Assembly: GCA_018399285.1 (NCBI GenBank)
Contig: JAGYOW010000002.1
Span: 1 to 64,000 of the forward strand
Source: Desulfotignum sp.
GTDB lineage: Bacteria; Desulfobacterota; Desulfobacteria; Desulfobacterales; Desulfobacteraceae
Direction of reading: 5' to 3'
DNA: 64,000 nucleotides
Positions 8,641 through 22,768 of the stretch are shown piece after piece. Under the pieces are notes generated by a model, which did no database searches, had not been told where the DNA came from, and saw only the letters and a list, made by a program, of their open reading frames with translations. Within the stretch, counting starts at the first letter, position 1. The number at the start of each line of letters is the position of its first letter. Both the position numbers and the translations under genes were made by a program.

Positions 8641-8748
8641 AATTTGAAAAAAGATCAATCCCCATCCTTGATGTCCGGTTGAAATAATCGCACAAATATA
8701 TGATACTTGATTTTTTTACGCCCACGGCTCACAGGAGGTCTTTTTAAC

Positions 8749-9654
8749 TTGGCCCTCACATCTGAAACCCGGAACCGGGTTCAGGCATACCTTGATTTTC
8801 TGGTGGTGGAAAAAGGATTGTCCGCAAACAGTCTTACTGCCTATGGAACGGATTTAACCCGGTTTCTGGATTTTCTGGAATCCCAGCAGATGTCATCTTT
8901 GGATCAGGTGGATCTCACCGTGATCCTGGCATGGCTGGTTCATTTGACCCGCAGCGGCCTGGCCCCCAAATCCCGGGCCAGACACCTGATCACCCTCAGG
9001 GGATTGTTTCGGTTTTTAGTGACTGAAAAATATCTGTCCATCAATCCGGTCAAAGAAGTGGACCTCCCCAGATCCGGCCGGTCCCTGCCCGAAATCATCA
9101 CCATTCCCGAGGTGACCGCACTGCTGGATACCATCGATACCACGCATCCCAGAGAATTGCGCAATGCCGCCATGCTTGAAGTCATGTACGGGGCCGGGCT
9201 CCGGGTATCTGAACTCATTTTCCTCAAAATCCAGGATGTGAATCTGGATGCCAACCTGGTGCGGGTGACGGGCAAAGGGGACAAGGAACGGATGGTGCCC
9301 ATCGGCACGAAGGCCGCGGACATCACCCGCCAGTGGAAAGACCGGGGCCGGCCCCGGATGCTTAAAACCCTTAACAGTCCCTACCTGTTTGTGGCCCGGG
9401 CGGGAAAACCCATGACCCGCCAGGGGTTCTGGAAAATCATCAAAAAATACGCGGTCCAGGCCGGCATTTTCCGCAATGTCACCCCGCATACTTTGCGGCA
9501 TTCTTTTGCCACCCATCTGCTGGAAGGCGGGGCTGATCTCAGATCCGTCCAGACCCTGCTGGGGCACACGGATATTTCCACCACCCAGATTTATACCCAT
9601 ATTTCCAGAGATTATCTGCTGCGCATGCATCAACGATATCATCCCCGGCGGTAA
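8749..9654 (+). CDS. xerD: XerC/XerD-family tyrosine recombinase
   Basis: The protein has about 301 residues if translation starts at the TTG at 8749, which has AGGAGG at 8733-8738; an upstream in-frame start would add 14 residues unlike the family. The N-terminal SAM-like core-binding domain (VQAYLDFLVVEKGLS) spans residues 10-95. The catalytic domain follows with all six active-site positions visible: Arg in GAGLRVSELI, Lys in GKGDKER, the HTLRHSFATHLL His-Arg pair, the second His in LLGHTDISTTQIY, and the Tyr nucleophile in QIYTH. Length and motifs fit chromosome-dimer resolvases rather than phage integrases. XerC versus XerD cannot be settled here. Confidence 0.88.
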   Translation: MALTSETRNRVQAYLDFLVVEKGLSANSLTAYGTDLTRFLDFLESQQMSSLDQVDLTVILAWLVHLTRSGLAPKSRARHLITLRGLFRFLVTEKYLSINPVKEVDLPRSGRSLPEIITIPEVTALLDTIDTTHPRELRNAAMLEVMYGAGLRVSELIFLKIQDVNLDANLVRVTGKGDKERMVPIGTKAADITRQWKDRGRPRMLKTLNSPYLFVARAGKPMTRQGFWKIIKKYAVQAGIFRNVTPHTLRHSFATHLLEGGADLRSVQTLLGHTDISTTQIYTHISRDYLLRMHQRYHPRR

Positions 9655-9739
9655 GGTTTTTCAAACCGGCAACAGGTCTTGATTGTTCCAGCGGGTTTAT
9701 GGTAAGACAGGCGGTCAACACTACCTTAAAACACCCGAT

Positions 9740-11377
9740 ATGGAATATCAGCTTATGACCCGACCGGACCCTGTCAGATCCGCCCTGTTTCAGATATCCA
9801 GGCCCATTTTTGTCACCCAAAAAAACAACGGGCCGCTCATGTCCCATGACCTGCCCGGTCCGCGTTCAGGAAAAGCAGAAAAATCCCAAGCACTTCCTTT
9901 TGATGGGTTTGCACCGGCAATCCCTTTGTCTGCGCTGGGAGACCCCGCATTCACGGCCCGGCACCATCTGAAGTATCCCTATGTGGCCGGTGCCATGGCC
10001 AACGGGATTGCTTCCGTGGAAATGGTACAGGCCATGGCAAAAAACGGGATGATCGGTTTTTTCGGAGCCGGCGGGCTGTCTTTATCAAAGATTGAACAGG
10101 CCGTCATCACCCTGACGTCCCGATTAAAAGACGCGCCTTTTGGTTTCAACCTGATCCATTCCCCGACGGATTCAGACCTTGAAACCGCCACCGTGCAATT
10201 ATACCTGAAACACGGCATCCGGCGGATCAGTGCCGCCGCATTCATGCGCATGACCCCAGCTCTCGTTTATTATCGGGTCAAGGGTCTTCACAAAGGCTTG
10301 GACGGACAGGTGAAAGCCCTGAATCAGGTGATTGCCAAAGTTTCCCGGATCGAGGTGGCCCGGCAGTTTTTCGCTCCCCCGCCCCGGAAACTGGTACACA
10401 TGTTACTGGAAAAAAAATGGATCACCCAGGAAGAAGCGGATCTGTCCCGGTTCATTCCCATGGCCCGGGATTTGACCGCAGAAGCCGATTCCGGGGGACA
10501 TACAGACAACCGCCCGGCACTGGCACTTCTTCCCACCATGCTGGCCTTGAAACAACAGTGCATGGATGAATATCATTATACGGACCCTTTGTGTGTGGGA
10601 CTGGCCGGCGGCATTGCCACGCCGGAATCCGCAGCAGCGGCCTTTGCCATGGGTGCGGCCTATATCCTCACCGGATCCATCAATCAGTCCTGCGTGGAGG
10701 CGGATATCAGCGATGATGTAAAAACGCTTTTGTGCCAGGCGGAACAGGCGGATGTGGCCATGGCTCCGGCAGCCGACATGTTTGAAATCGGTGCCCGGGT
10801 CCAGGTGTTGAAACGCGGGACTCTGTTTGCCATGCGGGCTGAAAAACTGTATCAGTTGTACCGGACCTATGCCCGGTTTGAAGATATTCCTGAAAAACAG
10901 CGTCAGGAAATTGAGACCCAGTTGCTGAAAACCGATTTTGAGCGCGCATGGCAGTCCACCCGCGCGTTTTTTGAATCCAGACACCAGCCGGCACAGATAC
11001 AGAAAGCCCAAACGGATCCCAAACACAAAATGGCGTTGGTGTTCCGTTCCTATCTGGGGCAAAGTTCCCGCTGGGCCATCCAGGGAATACTGGAACGCAA
11101 AATGGATTACCAGATCTGGTGCGGCCCGGCCATGGGCGCATTCAACCAGTGGGCAAAAAACAGTTTTCTGGCCGGACCGGAACACCGGAAAACTTCTGAT
11201 CTGGCGTTGAATCTGCTGTTTGGTGCCAGTGTCACCCTTCGGGCCATGATGCTGAAAACCCAGGGCGTGGTCCTGCCCCCTTCGGCCACGGCCGTCTATC
11301 CCATGAAAAAAAACGACATCCTGGCTTTGGCCGGATCGTTGCCTCAAAGCGATTCCATGGCAGCGGATCCCATGTAA
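9740..11377 (+). CDS. pfaD: PfaD-type trans-acting enoyl reductase (FMN, nitronate monooxygenase fold)
   Basis: This protein of about 545 residues belongs to the PfaD family, which supplies the enoyl-reductase step to polyunsaturated fatty acid or polyketide synthases in trans. Visible hallmarks are YPYVAGAMANGIAS and GFFGAGGLSLSKIEQ near the N-terminus, FGFNLIHSPTD, the FMN/phosphate-binding VGLAGGIATPESAAAAFAMGA, and the C-terminal helical region MFEIGARVQVLKRGTLFAMRA. The start is uncertain: in-frame candidates are TTG 9683, ATG 9740 and ATG 9755, and none has a strong ribosome site. It precedes the fused megasynthase gene by about 100 bases on the same strand, and the two presumably work together. 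Confidence 0.9.
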   Translation: MEYQLMTRPDPVRSALFQISRPIFVTQKNNGPLMSHDLPGPRSGKAEKSQALPFDGFAPAIPLSALGDPAFTARHHLKYPYVAGAMANGIASVEMVQAMAKNGMIGFFGAGGLSLSKIEQAVITLTSRLKDAPFGFNLIHSPTDSDLETATVQLYLKHGIRRISAAAFMRMTPALVYYRVKGLHKGLDGQVKALNQVIAKVSRIEVARQFFAPPPRKLVHMLLEKKWITQEEADLSRFIPMARDLTAEADSGGHTDNRPALALLPTMLALKQQCMDEYHYTDPLCVGLAGGIATPESAAAAFAMGAAYILTGSINQSCVEADISDDVKTLLCQAEQADVAMAPAADMFEIGARVQVLKRGTLFAMRAEKLYQLYRTYARFEDIPEKQRQEIETQLLKTDFERAWQSTRAFFESRHQPAQIQKAQTDPKHKMALVFRSYLGQSSRWAIQGILERKMDYQIWCGPAMGAFNQWAKNSFLAGPEHRKTSDLALNLLFGASVTLRAMMLKTQGVVLPPSATAVYPMKKNDILALAGSLPQSDSMAADPM

Positions 11378-11475
11378 AAGTTTTGTCAAATCCTTTGTCA
11401 TCGCATGATTTCTTTGTATCAGATCCGTATATTTCGCAATGAACCCAAAAAAATCTTAGGTTGATACCAGCGTTT

Positions 11476-14400
11476 ATGACACAGCAAATAAAAAATACCG
11501 ACATCGCCATTATCGGCATGGGATGCATCTTTCCCGGATCCGTCAATCTCAAGGCGTTCTGGCACCTGCTATACCAGGGTGTGGATGCCATCGAGCCGAT
11601 CCCGGCAGACACCCACTGGCCGGTTAAAGACTATTTTGATGAAGATCCATCCCGGCCGGACCATGTATATTGTTCCCGGGGCGGATTTATTCCGAAAATC
11701 AATTTTGATCCCACGGTTTTCGGCATCCCTCCCAACAACATCAACGCCACGGACACAGCCCAGCTGCTGGGACTTCAGGTGGCTAAAATGGCGCTGGAAG
11801 ATGCCGGGTATCCCAAAGAACACCCGTTTCTTTCCTCGGCCCGGGTCAATGTGATTTTAGGGGTGACCGGCACCCAGGAGCTGGTGATTCCGCTGGGCGC
11901 CAGACTGGGATATCCCATCTGGGAACACGCCCTGGACGATGAAGGTATTTCACCGGAACAAAAAGACAGGATCTGCCGCCGGATTCAGTCATCTTATGCC
12001 TCCTGGCAGGAAAACTCTTTTCCCGGACTGCTGGGCAATGTGGTGGCCGGCCGCATCGCCAACCGGTTCAACCTGTCCGGCACCAACAGTGTCAGTGATG
12101 CCGCCTGTGCCAGTTCTCTGTCCGCGCTGCATTCCGCTGTCATGGAGCTGTCCGCCGGCAAATGCGACATGTCCATCACCGGCGGGGTGGACTGCCTGAA
12201 CGATATTTTCATGCACATGTGTTTCGCCAAAACCGGAGTGTTGTCCCATACCAGTGATGCCCGGCCTTTTTCCAAAGATGCGGACGGCACTGTTTTAGGG
12301 GAAGGCATCGGCATGCTGGTGCTCAAGCGATTGCCTGACGCCCGGAAAGCCGGGGACCGGATCTATGCGGTCATCAAGGGTGTGGGCACTTCCAGTGACG
12401 GGAAAACATCGGCTATTTATGCGCCGGATGCCGCCGGCCAGATCAAGGCACTCAAGGATGCGTATCAGCAGGCAGATATTGATCCGGCCAGTGTGGGTCT
12501 GCTGGAGGCCCACGGCACGGGGACCCGGGTGGGGGACAAGGTGGAATTCACGGCATTGAACGCCTGCTTTACCCCGGAAACAACTCCTTCAAGGATTGCC
12601 ATCGGATCCGTGAAATCCATGATCGGGCATACCAAAGCCGCTGCCGGGGCCGCCGGGATCATCAAGGCTGCACTGGCCCTTCACCACAAAGTGATCCTGC
12701 CCACCCTCAAAGCCCAGGATCCCGACCCGGAACTTGCCATCAACCAGTCTGCTTTTTATCTCAACCACCGGTCCAAACCCTGGGTTGCCGGCACAAACGC
12801 CATGACTCCCCGCCGGGCCGGTGTGTCCGCGTTCGGTTTCGGGGGCAGCAATTTTCATGTGATTTTAGAAGAACAGACGTCAAAGAAAGCCCATGTTTCC
12901 TGGGATGGCTCCGTTCAGATTGCCGCATTTTCAGCCAATGACACAACCACGCTGCTGAAAAACCTGGAAACGTTTAAAAACAGTCTCACGCCCGATTTTT
13001 CACCGGATGAGGATGAAATGCAGCATCTTGTTTCCCGGGCATGTGCCGACTCCAGGAACACCTTTGATACCCGGGATGATTTTCGCCTGCTCATGGTCCT
13101 GGAGAAATCAGATGATCCCGTTGCGTTGACAGCAAAGGCCCGGGATCAGGTTGAACAAAAAAAACCGGGGACCGGACCCATATATTTTGAATCCGACCCG
13201 GTTCAGGGAAAACTGGGTTTTCTGTTCCCCGGACAGGGCAGCCAGTACCCGGATATGGGCAAAGACCTGTTTGCAGCTTTTCCTGAAGCCATGGCCGCGC
13301 TGGATCTGGCACAGGACATCTTCAAAGCCCATTCCCCGGACCCTGGGGATCCGGCCACCCCTTTTCCGGATCTGGCTGAACTGATGTTTGCACCGCCGTT
13401 GCATCTCCAGGAAAAATCAGTAACCGAATCCCGGCTCAGACAAACCCATGCGGCCCAGATGAGCATTGGGGTCGTATCTCTTGCCATGATCCAGGTACTC
13501 AAACGGTTCAATGTTTTGCCGCACATGACCTGTGGCCACAGTTTCGGGGAACTGCCGGCCCTGCATGCCGCCGGATGGATGGATGACTCCACCCTGCTGA
13601 ACCTGGCGGCGGTCCGGGGAAAGCACATGGCCCATGCCGGTGACACGGGAACGGACCGCGGCAGCATGCTGGCGGTTCAGGCCCCTTTGACCGACATTGA
13701 AACCTGGATCAAGGACCGGTTTTCCGACCTGGTTCTGGCCAATCAGAACAGCCCGGATCAAGGCGTTCTGTCCGGCCCGACTCCGGCAATTGACCAGGCC
13801 GTGACATGGTGCCGGAAAAACAAGATCCGATGTGTCAAACTGCCCGTGGCAGCCGCGTTTCACAGCCGTCTGGTGGCAGATGCCGCAGCCCCGTTTTACG
13901 AGTTTGTGGCGGATCAGCCCATTGCCCCCACAAAAGTTTCCGTGCTGTCCAATACCACGGGAACCTTGTATGACACCGACCCTGACACTGTTAAATCGCT
14001 GTTGGGGCATCAACTCATGCACCCGGTATGTTTCAAGCAGAACATTGAAACCATGCGCGACAAAAACGTGCGGTTTTTCATGGAGATCGGTCCCAAAACT
14101 GTGTTAACCGGGCTGACAAAAAAAATACTGGCATCTGATCCAGTCACTGTGATTGGGCTGGATGGCTCCAGCGGAAAAAAATCCGGGCTCACGGATCTGG
14201 CCCATGCATTGTGTCATCTGGCAGCCAAAGGCTTTGCCGTGGATTTGACCCCATGGGAAGACCCCGTGCCGTCACTGGCCTTGAAACGCATGCGCATAAA
14301 ACTATCCGGTGCTAACCCCAAATCTGTGGTTGAAAAGACATTGCCCCGGCCTTTGAATCATTCTGAGCCCCGGACGGGATGTTGCGCCTGCAAAACCGAT

Positions 14401-17400
14401 GTCCCGTCTTTGCCCGGGTCTGCCCAAACCATGAAACAACACCGGCCGGAAACAACTCCGGCGGATCAACAAGGACCTGTTATGCACCCGTTGTCATCAT
14501 CGTCACCTGCCCCGCAACAAGAATCAAACACAAAAGCCTCCGCCCGGTCCGGGGCATATGCCGGACAGGCCATGCACCTGGTTCACAAAGGGCTTGAAGC
14601 CATGCAGGCATTGCAGGCTCAGACCGCCCGGGCCCATGAAAAATTTCTGGATACCCAGGCCCGGGCCACCCAGACCCTGGCAGCCATGATGTCACACTCC
14701 CGTGAATTAGTTGATGGTATTTCTCCGGTGCCGGACAATAATCCTGTGATGACCCGGCCGGCGGACATCCCCGCACCCCGGCCGTCGGACAGCCCCGCGC
14801 TCCAACCGGCAGCGCCTTTGCCGGAGCAACCGCCCTTGCGTGAAAAAGTGAATACTACCGCGGTCCCCCGGCACACGCATTCAGACCCGCCTGTGACTGC
14901 AGCCCCCTCCCCGGCCCGGGCGTCCGCAAAAATTCAGTCTGTTTTGTTTGACATCGTGAGCCGTCTGACCGGGTTCCCCGAAGAAATGCTGGAACCGGAC
15001 ATGGACATTGAATCGGATTTAGGGGTGGATTCCATCAAAAAAGTGGAAATCATTTCCGAACTGGAAAAACAACTGCCCGACACCCGGGGGCTGACCACGG
15101 AAAACATCGGCACATCCAGAACCCTGGCCGATATCTGCCGGGCCATTTCATCCGCAGGTTCTGAAACATCTGATGCACAATCTTTGGACACGGTATTTTC
15201 CGACACACCGGGCTCATGTGAATCTGACATATCTGATTCTGACATACCTGGCCCCGCTGCCGGAACCGCTGCCGTGACTGATACCCAGACCGCTGGGACG
15301 TCGTGTTCAGACCCGAGCGCTGATTCCCGGGTGATGGATGTGATTGTCACCATCATCAGTGAACTGACCGGGTTCCCCCAAGAAATGCTGGAACCGGGTA
15401 TGGACCTGGAATCGGATCTGGGGGTGGATTCCATCAAACGGGTGGAAATTTTATCCCGGCTGGAACAAACGCTGGGAGACACGGCATCCCGCCTGTCCGG
15501 AGATGACATGGCCGGGTTGAAAACCATCCGGGATATGGTTTCCTTTCTGGATCAGGCCCCGTGTTCGCCGGAACCTGACGTAAAAAAAAACGCTTCACCC
15601 GGGGATGATGCCCCAAAACCGCTTGAAAACCCGGACCTGACCCGTCAGACCATCCATCTGGAAAAGATTCCCATCCAACAGGTCCGTTTTTTTAACGGCT
15701 CAAAAATCCAGGTGCCAGACACCGGAAAAATCTATATCACCCGGGATCAGGCAGGCATGGCAGACCGGTTGATACAGGCATTTCACAAACAGGGCCAGAA
15801 CGCGGAACTCCTGGATTTTTCATCTGAAAACATCCCGGATCTGACCGATGCCGCCGGTCTGGTGATTGTCCAGAATCAATTGTCTCAGACTGACACGGCT
15901 GACGCCATTGCATTTTTAAAGACCGCTTTTGCCCTGGTCCATAAAAACGGCCGCCATCTTCAGACCTCTGCCGCTCAAAAAGGGGCATTTCTGGCAACCG
16001 TCACCTTTTCCGGCGGGGGGTTCGGGATTCCGCCCTACCGGTTTGACACCCTGCCTGAGTTTGGGGGCCTGGCCGGTCTGGCCAAAACCGCGGCCCTGGA
16101 ATGGAAAGACGTGCTGTGCCATGCCCTGGACCTGCCCAATGTTCCGGATGCCTGGGTTGAATGCGCCGATGCAGCCGCCGCATTGATGATGACCAAAGGC
16201 CCTGTGGAGATGGGGCTGGGCAGGGAACATTGCCGCATTCCCACCCTGGAGACGGTACCTGTCCAGCCGGGCCGTTTGAACTTTTCACCCCATGACGTGG
16301 TGGTGATCACCGGCGGTGCCAGAGGGGTGACCGCCGCCTGTGCCGAAGAACTGGCAAAAACCGGTCCCTTGACCCTTGTTTTGCTGGGAAGATCCGCCCC
16401 TCCTTTTGATGAACCGGACTGGGCCGAATCCCTGTCTGATCCGGGTGAATTGAAAAAAGCGATCCTCATCCATGAATTTGCCGGAAAAAAGCCCACCCCG
16501 GCCGACCTGGAAAAAAGATTTCAAGCCATTTGTGCCAATCGGCAGATTCAGCAGACCCTGGCACAAATCCGGTCCCATGGATCCGACGGGGTGTATGTTT
16601 CCACGGACATCCGGCAGCCCGACGCGGTTCAAACGGCCCTGGATCAGATCCGCAGCCGGTTCAACACGCCCATTGCCGGGATTATTCACGGAGCCGGGGT
16701 GCTGGAAGACAAATGGATTGTGGATAAACATCCGGACCAGTTCAACCGGGTGTTTGACACCAAAGTCGACGGATTGAACGCATTGATTCAGGCCACACAG
16801 ACCGATCCGTTGAAATATATGATCGTGTTTTCATCCATTGCGGCCCGAACAGGAAATCCGGGCCAGTGCGATTACGCCATGGCCAATGAAGTGCTCAACA
16901 AATGCATGGGGGACATGGCTGCAAAAAAACCTGACTGCAAATGCCTGGCCATCAACTGGGGGCCCTGGGACGGGGGCATGGTCCATGACGGGCTCAAACA
17001 GGTGTTTGCCAAAAAAGGGGTGGGCCTGATTTCCATATCCGCCGGTGCCCGGCAGCTGATCCGGGAGATGGCAAACCCGGAGCCCAATCACACGGAAATT
17101 GTCATTACCGCGCCGACAATAGATCTGAAACAGAAAAAATCCCCGAAGCTGTCTTTGGTCAGCCAGATGGTGATCAGCCGTAGAACCGTTCCCATCATCA
17201 CAGCCCACCGGATCAATCATGAACCCGTGGTACCGTTTGCCCTGATGGCTGAAATCATGGCCCATGCAGCGGAAAAAAACCATCCGGGTCTGTTGTTGAC
17301 CGGACTGGATGACCTGCGGCTGTTAAAAGGCATCCGGCCTGCCAACCGGGACGTCCGGCTGGCCGTGAACGTAAGCCGATGCACCTGCACAGATACCCGA

Positions 17401-19170
17401 TACCTTGTTTTAGTCTCTTTGACATCTGTGTCTGACGATAACGATTGTGTCACCCATGCCACGGCCACGGCCGTGTTGAAAAACACCCTGCCGGATCCGC
17501 CCGTGTTGTCCGGCAAAAACCGCATGGACTTAGGCCCCTGTCAATTGAGCGTAAAAGCCGCATATGAAACCGTTTTGTTTCACGGCAAAGCCCTTCAGGC
17601 CATTACCGCGATTTCCGGCATCTCTGAAAAAGGGATCCAGGTCACGGCCTCAATGGCCCCTTCCCCGGACCACTGGTTTGACACACCCGTTCAAACCGGC
17701 TGGACCACGGACCCGCTTTTGGTGGATGCCGCGTTTCAGGCGGCCATCCTCTGGACCTGGGAAACCCGGAAACAGGTTTGTCTGCCCAGCTTTGTGGCCG
17801 GACTTCGGATTTATTCCTCGTTTCGGCAGAAGCCGGCTGAAAATACAGGCATCCAGATCCGGTTTACCGTCAATGAAAACACGGACCATCAGATCAAGGG
17901 ATATTTCACCTTTTGCGATGATCGCGGCAATGTGACAGCCAGTATCATGGGATTTGAAGCCGTGGTGGACTCGGCCCTGCATGACAAGTTCAAGCCTGAA
18001 CCGTTGTTTGACAAAAAATCCATCCTGGCCTTTGCCCAGGGAAACCCGTCCGACGCATTTGGTGCCAGATACCAGATTTTTGACAAAGACCGTCAGATCG
18101 CCCGCCTGCCCAGGCCCCCCTATTTTTTCATGGACCGGGTGTTGACGGCGGATCATGTCCCCTGGCAGATGCAGCCGGGCGGATGGATTGAAACGGCATA
18201 CGATGTGCCGGCCGATGCCTGGTATTTCACGGCCAACCACACCTCCACCCTGCCGTTTTGTATTCTGCTGGAGATCGCGTTGCAGCCCTGCGGTTGGCTG
18301 GCTGCCTATGCCGGCTCCGCACTGCACAGTGAGGACAGGCTGCATTTTCGAAACCTGGGCGGCACGGCCCGATGCATTCAGGAAATACCCCGGGACGCCG
18401 GCACCCTTTTGGTCCGGGTCCGGATGACCGATGTATCCAAGGCCGGGGACATGATTCTTCAGTCATTTGACATGCAGGTGACCAACCATGGCCAAACAGT
18501 CTATGAAGGCACCACCCGTTTCGGATTTTTCACGGCCCAGGCCCTGGCCAGTCAAAAAGGCATCCAGAACTGCGCGCTGGTTTCCGACACCCCCGCTGTG
18601 CCCCGGGAACCCTTTAAGGTATTTCCATCCGTTTCTCCCCGGACACCGGCGGATCTTTCCATGGACCCGGACACGGGCATGCCTGCGGATGCCCTGCGCA
18701 TGATCGATGCCATTGAGGTGATGGATCCATCCGGCGGCAAATTCAACCATGGATATGTCCGTGCCAAAAAAACCGTGGATCCCAAAGAATGGTTCTTTGA
18801 CGCGCATTTTTATCAGGACCCGGTCTGCCCGGGATCTCTGGGCATTGAATCGTTTTTGCAGACATTGCGGTATTATTTACTGGAAACCTTTTCCATGGAT
18901 CCGTCCACCCATGCCGTGTCACCGGTTTTGGGGGATACCCATGAATGGGTGTACCGGGGGCAGATCATCCCGACCCACAAAGAGGTCACCATTCACACCC
19001 ATATCCGTCAGGTATCACAGGAAAACGATATCTATGCAATAAAGGCGGACGGAGCCCTTTGCGTGGATGGCCGGGTGATCTATGAAATGAAAAATTTCGG
19101 ACTGGCCTTTGCGCCCGTGGGGCTTAAAAAAACCAGGGATCACCTGACCCGCATTTTTGCCCCCGTATAG
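11476..19170 (+). CDS. fused PfaA/PfaC-like polyunsaturated lipid synthase (KS-AT-ACP-ACP-KR-DH-DH-DH)
   Basis: The 2,564-residue iterative type I synthase probably builds a polyunsaturated acyl or polyketide chain in the cytosol. Domains in order: ketosynthase, residues 8-455 (active Cys in DAACASS near 211, His in EAHGTG and IGHTKAAAG); acyltransferase, 580-900 (Ser in GHSFGE near 689); a Pro/Ala-rich linker; two carrier domains with LGVDSIKK (Ser near 1186) and LGVDSIKR (Ser near 1319); ketoreductase, about 1400-1890 (GGARGVT, YxxxN in DYAMAN); a polyketide-type dehydratase, 1900-2180 (His in TAHRINHEPVVPF, Asp in LVDAAFQ); then two FabA-like hotdog domains, 2190-2370 and 2400-2564. The last keeps AHFYQDPVCPGSLG. 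The second ketosynthase and chain-length factor of PfaC and a PfaB acyltransferase are absent, as is a phosphopantetheinyl transferase gene. The start is the ATG at 11476. Confidence 0.9.
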   Translation: MTQQIKNTDIAIIGMGCIFPGSVNLKAFWHLLYQGVDAIEPIPADTHWPVKDYFDEDPSRPDHVYCSRGGFIPKINFDPTVFGIPPNNINATDTAQLLGLQVAKMALEDAGYPKEHPFLSSARVNVILGVTGTQELVIPLGARLGYPIWEHALDDEGISPEQKDRICRRIQSSYASWQENSFPGLLGNVVAGRIANRFNLSGTNSVSDAACASSLSALHSAVMELSAGKCDMSITGGVDCLNDIFMHMCFAKTGVLSHTSDARPFSKDADGTVLGEGIGMLVLKRLPDARKAGDRIYAVIKGVGTSSDGKTSAIYAPDAAGQIKALKDAYQQADIDPASVGLLEAHGTGTRVGDKVEFTALNACFTPETTPSRIAIGSVKSMIGHTKAAAGAAGIIKAALALHHKVILPTLKAQDPDPELAINQSAFYLNHRSKPWVAGTNAMTPRRAGVSAFGFGGSNFHVILEEQTSKKAHVSWDGSVQIAAFSANDTTTLLKNLETFKNSLTPDFSPDEDEMQHLVSRACADSRNTFDTRDDFRLLMVLEKSDDPVALTAKARDQVEQKKPGTGPIYFESDPVQGKLGFLFPGQGSQYPDMGKDLFAAFPEAMAALDLAQDIFKAHSPDPGDPATPFPDLAELMFAPPLHLQEKSVTESRLRQTHAAQMSIGVVSLAMIQVLKRFNVLPHMTCGHSFGELPALHAAGWMDDSTLLNLAAVRGKHMAHAGDTGTDRGSMLAVQAPLTDIETWIKDRFSDLVLANQNSPDQGVLSGPTPAIDQAVTWCRKNKIRCVKLPVAAAFHSRLVADAAAPFYEFVADQPIAPTKVSVLSNTTGTLYDTDPDTVKSLLGHQLMHPVCFKQNIETMRDKNVRFFMEIGPKTVLTGLTKKILASDPVTVIGLDGSSGKKSGLTDLAHALCHLAAKGFAVDLTPWEDPVPSLALKRMRIKLSGANPKSVVEKTLPRPLNHSEPRTGCCACKTDVPSLPGSAQTMKQHRPETTPADQQGPVMHPLSSSSPAPQQESNTKASARSGAYAGQAMHLVHKGLEAMQALQAQTARAHEKFLDTQARATQTLAAMMSHSRELVDGISPVPDNNPVMTRPADIPAPRPSDSPALQPAAPLPEQPPLREKVNTTAVPRHTHSDPPVTAAPSPARASAKIQSVLFDIVSRLTGFPEEMLEPDMDIESDLGVDSIKKVEIISELEKQLPDTRGLTTENIGTSRTLADICRAISSAGSETSDAQSLDTVFSDTPGSCESDISDSDIPGPAAGTAAVTDTQTAGTSCSDPSADSRVMDVIVTIISELTGFPQEMLEPGMDLESDLGVDSIKRVEILSRLEQTLGDTASRLSGDDMAGLKTIRDMVSFLDQAPCSPEPDVKKNASPGDDAPKPLENPDLTRQTIHLEKIPIQQVRFFNGSKIQVPDTGKIYITRDQAGMADRLIQAFHKQGQNAELLDFSSENIPDLTDAAGLVIVQNQLSQTDTADAIAFLKTAFALVHKNGRHLQTSAAQKGAFLATVTFSGGGFGIPPYRFDTLPEFGGLAGLAKTAALEWKDVLCHALDLPNVPDAWVECADAAAALMMTKGPVEMGLGREHCRIPTLETVPVQPGRLNFSPHDVVVITGGARGVTAACAEELAKTGPLTLVLLGRSAPPFDEPDWAESLSDPGELKKAILIHEFAGKKPTPADLEKRFQAICANRQIQQTLAQIRSHGSDGVYVSTDIRQPDAVQTALDQIRSRFNTPIAGIIHGAGVLEDKWIVDKHPDQFNRVFDTKVDGLNALIQATQTDPLKYMIVFSSIAARTGNPGQCDYAMANEVLNKCMGDMAAKKPDCKCLAINWGPWDGGMVHDGLKQVFAKKGVGLISISAGARQLIREMANPEPNHTEIVITAPTIDLKQKKSPKLSLVSQMVISRRTVPIITAHRINHEPVVPFALMAEIMAHAAEKNHPGLLLTGLDDLRLLKGIRPANRDVRLAVNVSRCTCTDTRYLVLVSLTSVSDDNDCVTHATATAVLKNTLPDPPVLSGKNRMDLGPCQLSVKAAYETVLFHGKALQAITAISGISEKGIQVTASMAPSPDHWFDTPVQTGWTTDPLLVDAAFQAAILWTWETRKQVCLPSFVAGLRIYSSFRQKPAENTGIQIRFTVNENTDHQIKGYFTFCDDRGNVTASIMGFEAVVDSALHDKFKPEPLFDKKSILAFAQGNPSDAFGARYQIFDKDRQIARLPRPPYFFMDRVLTADHVPWQMQPGGWIETAYDVPADAWYFTANHTSTLPFCILLEIALQPCGWLAAYAGSALHSEDRLHFRNLGGTARCIQEIPRDAGTLLVRVRMTDVSKAGDMILQSFDMQVTNHGQTVYEGTTRFGFFTAQALASQKGIQNCALVSDTPAVPREPFKVFPSVSPRTPADLSMDPDTGMPADALRMIDAIEVMDPSGGKFNHGYVRAKKTVDPKEWFFDAHFYQDPVCPGSLGIESFLQTLRYYLLETFSMDPSTHAVSPVLGDTHEWVYRGQIIPTHKEVTIHTHIRQVSQENDIYAIKADGALCVDGRVIYEMKNFGLAFAPVGLKKTRDHLTRIFAPV

Positions 19171-21120: not shown

Positions 21121-21213
21121 TCACTTTCCGTGGGGGGAGAAAAAAATAAAGACCAGAAACAGCCCCATCAGAAACAGTGTCAGATATAAACCGAATTTTT
21201 CAATGCGCCCCAT
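21121..21213 (-). CDS. 30-residue single-pass membrane microprotein overlapping murJ
   Basis: An ATG at 21213, preceded by AAAAGAGGATTCCC, opens a 30-codon frame inside the last codons of murJ and stops at 21121. The peptide begins MGRIEKFGLYLTLF, continues through one long hydrophobic helix (residues 8-25) and ends FFSPHGK. The overlap with murJ and the good ribosome site suggest coupled translation. The positive N-terminus and hydrophobic core predict an inner-membrane peptide, possibly a partner of the flippase; this is inference from position only. Confidence 0.5.
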   Translation of the reverse strand: MGRIEKFGLYLTLFLMGLFLVFIFFSPHGK

Positions 21214-22768
21214 GGGAATCCTCTTTTTTCATATGGTCATTCAGCCTGTGCCCGATCATGCTCAGTTCCGGCAGACGCAGAATTTTGGCCCCGGTCCATA
21301 CAATGGCCATGCCCAGCAACACACAAACCATCACTTTTATCCCCAATAACAGCTTTCCTTGGGTATCAAAGAAAAGGTGCTGTTTCACCCACTGAATTGA
21401 AAATATCATTATAACAGATAAGAAAAAGGCTCTGCAAGCTGAAACCAGAATACCTGTTTTTGAGACAACCACCCCTGCCAGAGGCCGGCTCATCAAAAAA
21501 AAGAACCCGGCCATGGAAGACATCGTCACGGCCAGTGCCAGGCCCTGTGCTTCCATATAATACATCAGTACGGGGGCACACACCAGATTGGTGGTCATGG
21601 ATATGATTCCGGCATAAAAAGGATCCCGGGAACTGTTCAAGGCATAATGCAGGGTCACGAACAGCCGGGTGCCGATAAATGCGCCGATGCCCAAGGCCAG
21701 ATACCACAGGCATTCCGCCGTCTTGATCACGGCGGATGTATCAAAAGCACCCTGGCCGAACAGCAGCCGGACAATGGGTTCGCGTAACACCATCAGTCCG
21801 GCCATGGCCGGGACGGCCACAAACACGGCCAGCCGGACCCCGGCATCAAACACGTCGCTGATGCCCTCCATGTCTCCGGCCGCCGCTTTTCTGGAAAAAA
21901 AAGGCAGCAGCACCGTGGAAATTGACACCGCGATCAAGGCCACGGGAAACTGGACCAGGCGGTCGGCATAATACAGAAACGACACACTGCCATCCACCAG
22001 AAAAGAAGCAAGAAAAGAGATCGCCAGCATATTGATCTGATACGGGGCCGCCCCCACCATACAGGGCACCATGTTTTTGATACTGTCCATGACCGGGGGA
22101 TGACACCAGACAAACCGGGCCGGTTGAAACAATTTGTACCGGATCATGAAAGGGATCTGAAACATAAGCTGAATCCCGCCCCCTGCCATCACTCCGACGG
22201 CCAGCCAGATCACGGGGTCAAACACCTGCTCTGGCATGGTCAATGCAAACGCAATCACCACCAGGTTAAAAACAAGGGGTGTGGCCCCGGGCACACAAAA
22301 ATGACCCAGGGTGTTCAACACGGCCATGCACAAAGAAATCATCATAATGACCCAGAGATACGGCATCATGATTTTAAACAGGGTCAGGGTCAAAGCAAAC
22401 CGATCCCCGCCGGGCGCAAATCCCGGCGCCATGAGATGCAGCAACCAGGGGGCCAGCAACCATCCGGCCAGAATCAGAAATGCGCTCAAGGCGGACAGGA
22501 TTCCTAACGCACTGGTCACCATTGTCACGGCCTCATCTTGTTGACCGGTTTGAATGGACCGGGAAAAAGGGAGCACAAAAGAGATGCTGAAAATGCCGTC
22601 GCTGAACATTTTTCTGAGCAGGTCAAAGGGCCGGAATGCGATAAAAAAAGCGTCACTTGCGGCCGTGGTTCCGATCATCATGGCGATGAACGCATCCCGG
22701 ATTACCCCGAATATCCGGCTTAAAAGCGTTAAACCGCTGATTGCGGCCGTATGTTTGATCAGGGCCAT
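21200..22768 (-). CDS. murJ: lipid II flippase MurJ (MviN)
   Basis: The 522-residue polytopic protein of the MOP exporter superfamily moves lipid II across the inner membrane for peptidoglycan synthesis. The family opening ISGLTLLSRIFGVIRDAFIA (about residues 10-29) is followed by FFIAFRPFDLLRKMFSDGIF, where MurJ proteins carry the A..PNLLRRLFAEGAF motif; this copy has diverged at that site. About 14 membrane helices fit the hydropathy, and the length is normal. The start is the ATG at 22768. Divergent rpsT is transcribed from a promoter 14 bases beyond the start. A membrane microprotein overlaps its 3' end. Confidence 0.93.
   Translation of the reverse strand: MALIKHTAAISGLTLLSRIFGVIRDAFIAMMIGTTAASDAFFIAFRPFDLLRKMFSDGIFSISFVLPFSRSIQTGQQDEAVTMVTSALGILSALSAFLILAGWLLAPWLLHLMAPGFAPGGDRFALTLTLFKIMMPYLWVIMMISLCMAVLNTLGHFCVPGATPLVFNLVVIAFALTMPEQVFDPVIWLAVGVMAGGGIQLMFQIPFMIRYKLFQPARFVWCHPPVMDSIKNMVPCMVGAAPYQINMLAISFLASFLVDGSVSFLYYADRLVQFPVALIAVSISTVLLPFFSRKAAAGDMEGISDVFDAGVRLAVFVAVPAMAGLMVLREPIVRLLFGQGAFDTSAVIKTAECLWYLALGIGAFIGTRLFVTLHYALNSSRDPFYAGIISMTTNLVCAPVLMYYMEAQGLALAVTMSSMAGFFFLMSRPLAGVVVSKTGILVSACRAFFLSVIMIFSIQWVKQHLFFDTQGKLLLGIKVMVCVLLGMAIVWTGAKILRLPELSMIGHRLNDHMKKEDSHGAH

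Follow-up and report, generated by a model that had tools for sequence, protein, structure and literature searches.

The pfaD and pfaA genes described here encode two parts of a Pfa synthase that is probably split and rearranged: it would act with a separate KS-CLF-DH partner protein and most likely provide a C16-class polyunsaturated acyl group for hydrocarbon synthesis. They lie in the window, by which we mean the whole 64,000-nucleotide stretch of DNA that was analyzed (G000:C112:1-64000), taken from a metagenome-assembled genome (MAG) of 3.50 Mb in 199 contigs that is 86.5% complete. Judged from its sequences, the organism is Desulfotignum-like; among the named loci that come closest to the large PfaA protein (the best 80 of 215 candidates) are Desulfotignum MAGs with 71-94% identity.

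Domain organization and distribution of the PfaA fusion

Both genes are on the + strand, pfaD first. The pfaD gene (9741..11377) encodes a FabK/NMO-type enoyl reductase that matches TIGR02814 with 625.6 bits (cut-off 449.25) and is the sole match to this model in its genome. Its reading frame is open from a TTG at 9683, and 9741, the first in-frame ATG, is the putative start. The pfaA-DH2 fusion follows (11476..19170; frame open from TTG 11461), and its 2,564-residue product scores 1306.9 bits against TIGR02813 (cut-off 1010.1). From reading of the translations, the flanking genes are a XerC-like recombinase (8707-9654) upstream of pfaD and a MurJ-like gene (21200-22768) downstream of pfaA. 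The G+C content is 55-56% in pfaD and pfaA (9683-19170) versus 50% in the rest of the window.

A Pfam and NCBIfam domain search confirmed what a sequence-only reading of this DNA had claimed, namely a KS-AT-ACP-ACP-KR-DH protein that runs on into a FabA-like pair, with PfaD adjoining. The Pfam order is KS, KS C-extension, AT, two ACPs, KR, PS-DH and two FabA stretches, all encoded on the + strand. The KS domain (11497..12711, residues 8-412; PF00109, PF02801) carries Cys211, His346 and His385, and the malonyl transferase-like AT (13219..14136, residues 582-887; PF00698) carries Ser689 and His796. Beyond a helical linker with an AHxxFL motif (14590..14727, at about residue 1053), PF00550 matches in two stretches: the first ACP has its phosphopantetheine serine, Ser1186 (codon 15031..15033), in a DSIK motif, and the second covers residues 1289-1358 (15340..15549; Ser1319). 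These are followed by the KR domain (16300..16971, residues 1609-1832; PF08659), by a PKS-type dehydratase (PS-DH; 17155..17958, residues 1894-2161; PF14765, with a weak PF21089 match below cut-off) with His1912 and Asp2085, and by a FabA-type dehydratase unit, DH2 (18043..19167, residues 2190-2564), recognized by PF07977, a tree, an AlphaFold model and Foldseek. When the window's protein was aligned with 11 of its 17 fused relatives, the KS Cys/His/His, the AT Ser/His, both ACP serines, the KR motifs and the PS-DH His/Asp were conserved in all 12 proteins. By curated cut-offs, domains and residues, the PfaA (KS-MAT-tandem ACP-KR-DH) and the PfaD of a Pfa synthase are both present. A PPTase search of the genome, which the sequence-only reading had called for, gave two PF01648 matches above cut-off.

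The fusion is not a chance event, since 17 of the 79 named loci surveyed (from the best 80 of the 215 candidates) encode KS, KR and FabA unit in a single ORF, and a further five (Desulfobacter, Desulfamplus) have a two-ORF form broken between ACP and KR. PfaA ends after the PS-DH in 31 loci and after the KR in one, the KS piece is absent in two, and contig ends or frameshifts truncate the remaining 23. The 31 unfused PfaA proteins come from records of Desulfobacterales or of unclassified deltaproteobacteria, apart from one in a planctomycete MAG. In 14 of the 17 single-ORF fusions PfaD is 54-317 bases upstream of PfaA; no pfaD occurs within the flank examined in Desulfospira (L018), and the sequences of L020 and L059 begin too close to pfaA for pfaD to be scored. 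Within the family Desulfobacteraceae, 81 of 86 genomes match the window's PfaA protein at E<=1e-80.

The KS-CLF-DH partner and the division of PfaC

The second KS and the CLF had been described as missing. This is true of the whole 146.8-kb contig C112, on which PfaA's own KS is the only KS match, but not of the lineage. Our survey with PF00109 and PF07977 covered 24 genomes, 14 of them fusion-type. Nine of the 14 have a separate ORF of 1,341-1,538 aa with KS and FabA, three have a longer partner form (1,967-2,123 aa), and two, G004 and the window's own genome, have partner pieces only. The Desulfospira partner reads KS-KS/CLF-FabA-FabA. In G273, a genome of the same genus, PfaA shares 97% identity with the window's protein and the partner is complete at 1,420 aa, with a KS that has its Cys (182) and a CLF half without Cys, and the partner locus is about 670 kb from the PfaA locus. 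In the window's MAG, the partner gene is cut by the end of contig C144, which leaves a tail of 352 codons with a FabA fold; because of this break, the genome-wide KS search of the assembly does not find the partner's KS-CLF.

Other KS-bearing loci of the MAG were considered as the missing part and rejected. On C116, C134 and C130 the KS model has weak matches over 40-45 positions (E 1e-5 to 1e-6) that are probably not KS enzymes. The C2 (L008) and C159 (L011) loci are other type I synthases, C2 having a Desulfospira relative with an ER-KS-KS-AT-ACP-KR-DH set of its own. L011, a third type I synthase of this genome (KS-AT ... KR-DH), has a PPTase, an ABC transporter, a radical SAM protein and an AONS-type gene on its 3' side, these names being taken from translations except for KS and PPTase.

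At E<=1e-60, the partner is present at least in part in 10 of the 13 genomes of the window's own genus, with no match in G277, G280 and G282 (77-83% complete), and in 77 of the 86 family genomes. Three of the 77 matches (G219, G224, G229) are weak, 6.8e-62 to 1.3e-65, and probably come from another PKS. For the 42 good genomes of the family (>=90% complete, <=5% contaminated) we applied thresholds of E<=1e-150 for the partner and E<=1e-80 for PfaA: both are present in 41, and G229 has neither. Among less complete genomes, seven at 56-83% (G227, G234, G246, G262, G277, G280, G282) have PfaA without a partner match, G224 (63%) has PfaA with a weak partner match only, and in G220 (89%) the partner is present and PfaA does not reach the threshold.

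A stand-alone KS-CLF, which the sequence-only reading had named as evidence that would count against its own proposal, thus exists as far as structure goes, in 41 of 42 good genomes and clustered with PfaA in three loci (see below). That proposal was a compact synthase that is self-sufficient without KS-CLF. It fits the lack of another KS on the window's contig and of a KS-CLF in the incomplete assembly; given the co-occurrence of partner and PfaA, their clustering and the partner tail in the window's own MAG, we consider it very improbable. Clustering, co-occurrence and complementary domains suggest instead that the partner probably acts together with PfaA.

AlphaFold models residues 2190-2564 of PfaA, the FabA pair at its end, as two hotdog folds (pLDDT 83.8, pTM 0.85). 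A FabA Pfam stretch (2403-2538) contains His2444; the second fold keeps an invariant His in all 12 aligned proteins, and the His of the first fold is not conserved. In Foldseek the model's top PDB match is the fatty acid synthase DH in 2cf2 (chain C), and further matches include double-hotdog ones and single FabA chains with about 145 columns covered. Two hotdog folds, a His kept in the second only and these Foldseek matches indicate that the PfaA tail is one dehydratase unit. Calling it the two FabA-like domains of PfaC was therefore correct in that it is PfaC dehydratase material, but it amounts to one unit and not to the whole PfaC set.

That set is seen in unfused Desulfobacterales such as Desulfosarcina alkanivorans (L090/L102), which have pfaD-pfaA, homologous to the window's, and a KS-CLF-AT-DH-DH protein. 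Unlike the window's lineage, they keep both dehydratase units (four FabA stretches) and a PfaB-like AT in one PfaC of 2,374 aa (L102), together with KS and CLF; the AT scores 93 bits against TIGR02816, under the cut-off of 144.3. This arrangement is similar to the pfaBC fusions that the text of PMC3098273 describes for Types C and I. In a tree of 48 dehydratase units, chosen from 67 distinct ones by thinning close copies of partner units, a single split with 100/100 support separates second-type from first-type units. The second side holds the window's unit, all 23 tails of fused or split PfaA proteins and eight second PfaC units; the first side holds the partner's nine units and eight first PfaC units. 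As the tree is rooted by midpoint only and does not join the fused tails in one clade, it gives the correspondence of units and not the direction of change. By these comparisons PfaC is split rather than lost, with DH2 on PfaA and DH1 on the KS-CLF partner, so that PfaC is not found as one KS-CLF-DH-DH protein. DH2 would have moved from PfaC to PfaA, because the PfaC with four FabA stretches is more widely spread.

The AHxxFL motif of the PfaA linker also occurs in the partner. By strict pattern it is found between AT and ACP in 44 of 72 PfaA ORFs, between CLF/AT and DH1 in 34 of 39 partner or PfaC proteins, and in 7 of 728 other ORFs of the loci, six of which are PfaA or PfaC pieces. A profile of the PfaA AHxxFL windows reaches 10 of the 39 partners at E<=0.01. 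The motif is suggestive as a candidate docking helix between PfaA and partner; a literature search on such a helix gave nothing on it among the matches listed.

Ole genes, PfaB and the predicted product

We examined the 30 best-scoring partner loci, of which 24 contain the gene end and 1.5 kb beyond it; the others (L121, L131-L135) are uncountable owing to contig ends or partial matches. OleA and OleB are directly downstream of the partner in all 24. Three loci, L082 (Desulfobacter latus), L140 and L141, join both halves of the synthase in the order partner-oleA-oleB-x-oleC-(small opposite ORF)-pfaD-pfaA, with the named genes on the same strand and pfaA in its two-ORF form, whose second ORF lies past the end of L082. 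The partner is followed by oleA-oleB-oleC in G273, and homologues of oleA, oleB and oleC come after the partner tail on contig C144 of the window's MAG. The MAG's OleA scores 424 bits against PRK09258 (cut-off 285). Its OleC is above the PRK09274 cut-off and below both olefin beta-lactone synthetase equivalog cut-offs (604 bits versus a 900-bit equivalog cut-off), and OleB is assigned by position and a/b hydrolase fold, with no equivalog above cut-off. In the family clusters L140, L141 and L142, no OleD adjoins oleC; in the outgroup locus L102 an OleD follows OleC, at 416 bits versus a 580-bit cut-off.

As in the window's lineage, ole genes come after PfaC in the loci of unfused Desulfobacterales that were checked. 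OleA, OleB and OleC adjoin PfaC in L035, L044 and L062, and OleA is near PfaC at the edge of the stretch examined in L056 and L057. Unlike the other loci, L102 and L103 have OleB and OleC after PfaC without OleA.

The absence of PfaB, already pointed out from the sequence alone, is borne out for the genus: none of its 13 genomes matches TIGR02816 at E<=1e-3. Across the family, 30 of 86 genomes have any match to this model and only two (G270, G271) are above its cut-off, on contigs other than the partner's. A PfaB-like AT inside or beside the partner, compared by contig, occurs in 14 of the 86. As several of these 14 already have a fused PfaA, the DH2 change seems to have preceded loss of the AT. 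In one published case, a gammaproteobacterial gene set, after deletion of pfaB from the Moritella marina genes in E. coli no PUFA of greater chain length was made, and PfaB is described there as needed beyond C18 (PMC12895367).

From these parts we propose the following route. The AT of PfaA would load malonate onto the two ACPs, and the PfaA KS would start elongation, with KR, PS-DH and PfaD completing the cycles that saturate the chain. Cis double bonds would be set by the FabA-type dehydratases, PfaA's DH2 and the partner's DH1, and the partner's KS-CLF would take over elongation at a medium-chain step and set the length. In characterized synthases, PfaA-KS and KS-CLF are reported to alternate, KS-CLF acting from C8 to C10 and in late steps (PMC13311796, PMC9702510); the Schizochytrium KS-CLF takes C8 to C10, which is said to mirror gammaproteobacteria (PMC13311796). 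FabA-type dehydratases are reported to isomerize to cis double bonds, and the PKS-type dehydratase with ER to saturate (PMC9702510). Without PfaB there would be no extension past C18, which would leave the acyl group to OleA. OleA would take it from the ACP and join two, and OleB, OleC and a putative OleD would finish a C31-type polyene; were OleD absent, a ketone would result instead.

There is experimental precedent: E. coli with a Pfa set and OleA formed a 31:8 ketone, for which OleA was proposed to take 16:4 directly from the PfaA ACPs (PMC6463001). On the simplest interpretation of the gene content, the synthase would be dedicated to C31-type polyunsaturated hydrocarbons, and its product probably differs from EPA/DHA, as the sequence-only reading had supposed. 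The chain length, the number of double bonds and the end product given here are predictions. Geobacter bemidjiensis is reported to make hentriacontanonaene (PMC3098273), and the sulfate reducer Desulfotalea psychrophila C31:8 and C31:9 (PMC2649909). Because the authors of the latter paper report no polyketide-type PUFA route in the Desulfotalea psychrophila genome, a C31 product alone is no proof of a Pfa route.

Alternatively, the genes could encode a membrane PUFA (C18-C22) synthase with OleA as a side branch only, as in Shewanella. The KS-CLF, DH and ER content is the same as in EPA/DHA synthases, and the PfaB-like AT of the 14 family genomes points the same way. As no PfaB match occurs in the window's genus and the one published pfaB deletion gave no PUFA of greater chain length, we judge this quite unlikely and prefer the hydrocarbon route.

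Gammaproteobacterial Pfa synthases (Type A/B in the text of PMC3098273) share with the present system a PfaA with KS-MAT-ACPn-KR, a stand-alone PfaD ER, KS-CLF and FabA-type dehydratases. They differ in that here PfaC is split, DH2 is on PfaA, KS-CLF-DH1 is in the ole operon, the ACPs number two and PfaB has no match. The Shewanella hentriacontanonaene system has Ole genes that work with a Pfa synthase, as they probably do here; its synthase, as reported in PMC6463001, is complete and also makes EPA, whereas here PfaB was not found and KS-CLF is inside the ole operon. The Type R synthase (KS-MAT-CLF-ACP-KR plus PPTase) shares the compact type I arrangement, but its domain order differs and neither PfaD nor a FabA unit appears in its text description in PMC3098273. 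Types A-T of Shulse & Allen 2011 (PMC3098273) were compared by their text descriptions. The text of the literature searched has no description of the fused architecture or of pfa/ole in this family. The components are all known, and that text likewise describes no PfaC split in this way, no fusion of DH2 to PfaA and no CLF in an ole operon.

Core fatty acid synthesis in Desulfobacteraceae

FabF above the NCBIfam cut-off was found in none of the 86 family genomes. In a survey of the order it was present in 155 of 194 sampled genomes, 0/6 from the family and 155/188 from outside it. Near-FabF proteins do exist in the Desulfobacula group, as G253, G244 and G264 reach 474-486 bits versus the cut-off of 493.75. 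FabZ is above cut-off in none of the 86 either (best G238, 153.1 versus 155.15), and FabH is above cut-off in 80. No other fab gene was recognized by eye in the 16 kb around fabH in the window's genome. In a second family of the order (f18), all six sampled genomes have weak FabF matches only (best E 1e-74 to 1e-88), compared with about 1e-190 in genomes that have FabF. With neither FabF nor FabZ above cut-off in any of the 86 family genomes, the question arises how membranes are synthesized, and we found no earlier description of this family-wide pattern in the literature searched.

One answer would be that the Pfa system is itself the core fatty acid synthase, taking the place of the type II enzymes for elongation and dehydration, with the double bond of 16:1 and 18:1 coming from its FabA units. 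We favored this for the window's genes when FabF and FabZ were not found in the family and FabF proved common in the order outside it, and there is a precedent in the Type S synthase of Desulfobacterium autotrophicum, without fabA/fabZ, for which a core role was proposed in the text of PMC3098273. Our estimate was lowered by G229, a 99% complete genome with no PfaA, partner, FabF or FabZ above the thresholds used, so that something other than Pfa must make its membrane lipids. The retention of FabH in 80 of 86 genomes also speaks against a core role, the ole linkage points elsewhere, and a separate synthase of about 3,900 aa is a better candidate. We thus regard a core role of the Pfa genes as unlikely.

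A KS in an open frame of 3,722-4,212 aa occurs in 11 of the 14 fusion-type genomes, and a similar long frame in the unfused genomes G020 and G021, which do have FabF. The Desulfospira copy (L105:4663-16407, about 3,900 aa), the only one scanned, has two NMO, three KS, one AT, four ACP, one KR and one PS-DH domains in the order ER-KS-KS-AT-KS-ACP4-KR-DH. In the window's MAG the gene (L008 on C2) is spread over several frames, through assembly errors or decay. We tentatively suggest, at somewhat less than even odds, that Desulfobacteraceae depend on type I megasynthases: FabF and FabZ would have been lost, the enzyme of about 3,900 aa (ER-KS-CLF-AT-ACP-KR-DH) would make the membrane acids, and Pfa would be a hydrocarbon line with its CLF in the ole operon and a chain kept near C16 as PfaB was discarded. 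The idea is not wholly new, because PMC3098273 had suggested the core role of Type S in Desulfobacterium autotrophicum.

The literature searched holds no lipid data on Desulfotignum, and neither fatty acid synthesis nor PUFA comes up in the passages of PMC11887813 searched on Desulfobacteraceae. What was suspected to be an incomplete enzyme becomes a natural domain-shuffling experiment: the partner has a PfaB-like AT in part of the family (Desulfamplus, for example) and lacks it in the window's genus, both with DH2 on PfaA. This contrast bears on whether PfaB sets a PUFA or a hydrocarbon fate, and on the role of each dehydratase. If the proposed product is right, these marine sulfate reducers, which PMC11887813 calls cosmopolitan, would contribute C31 polyenes to anoxic sediment.
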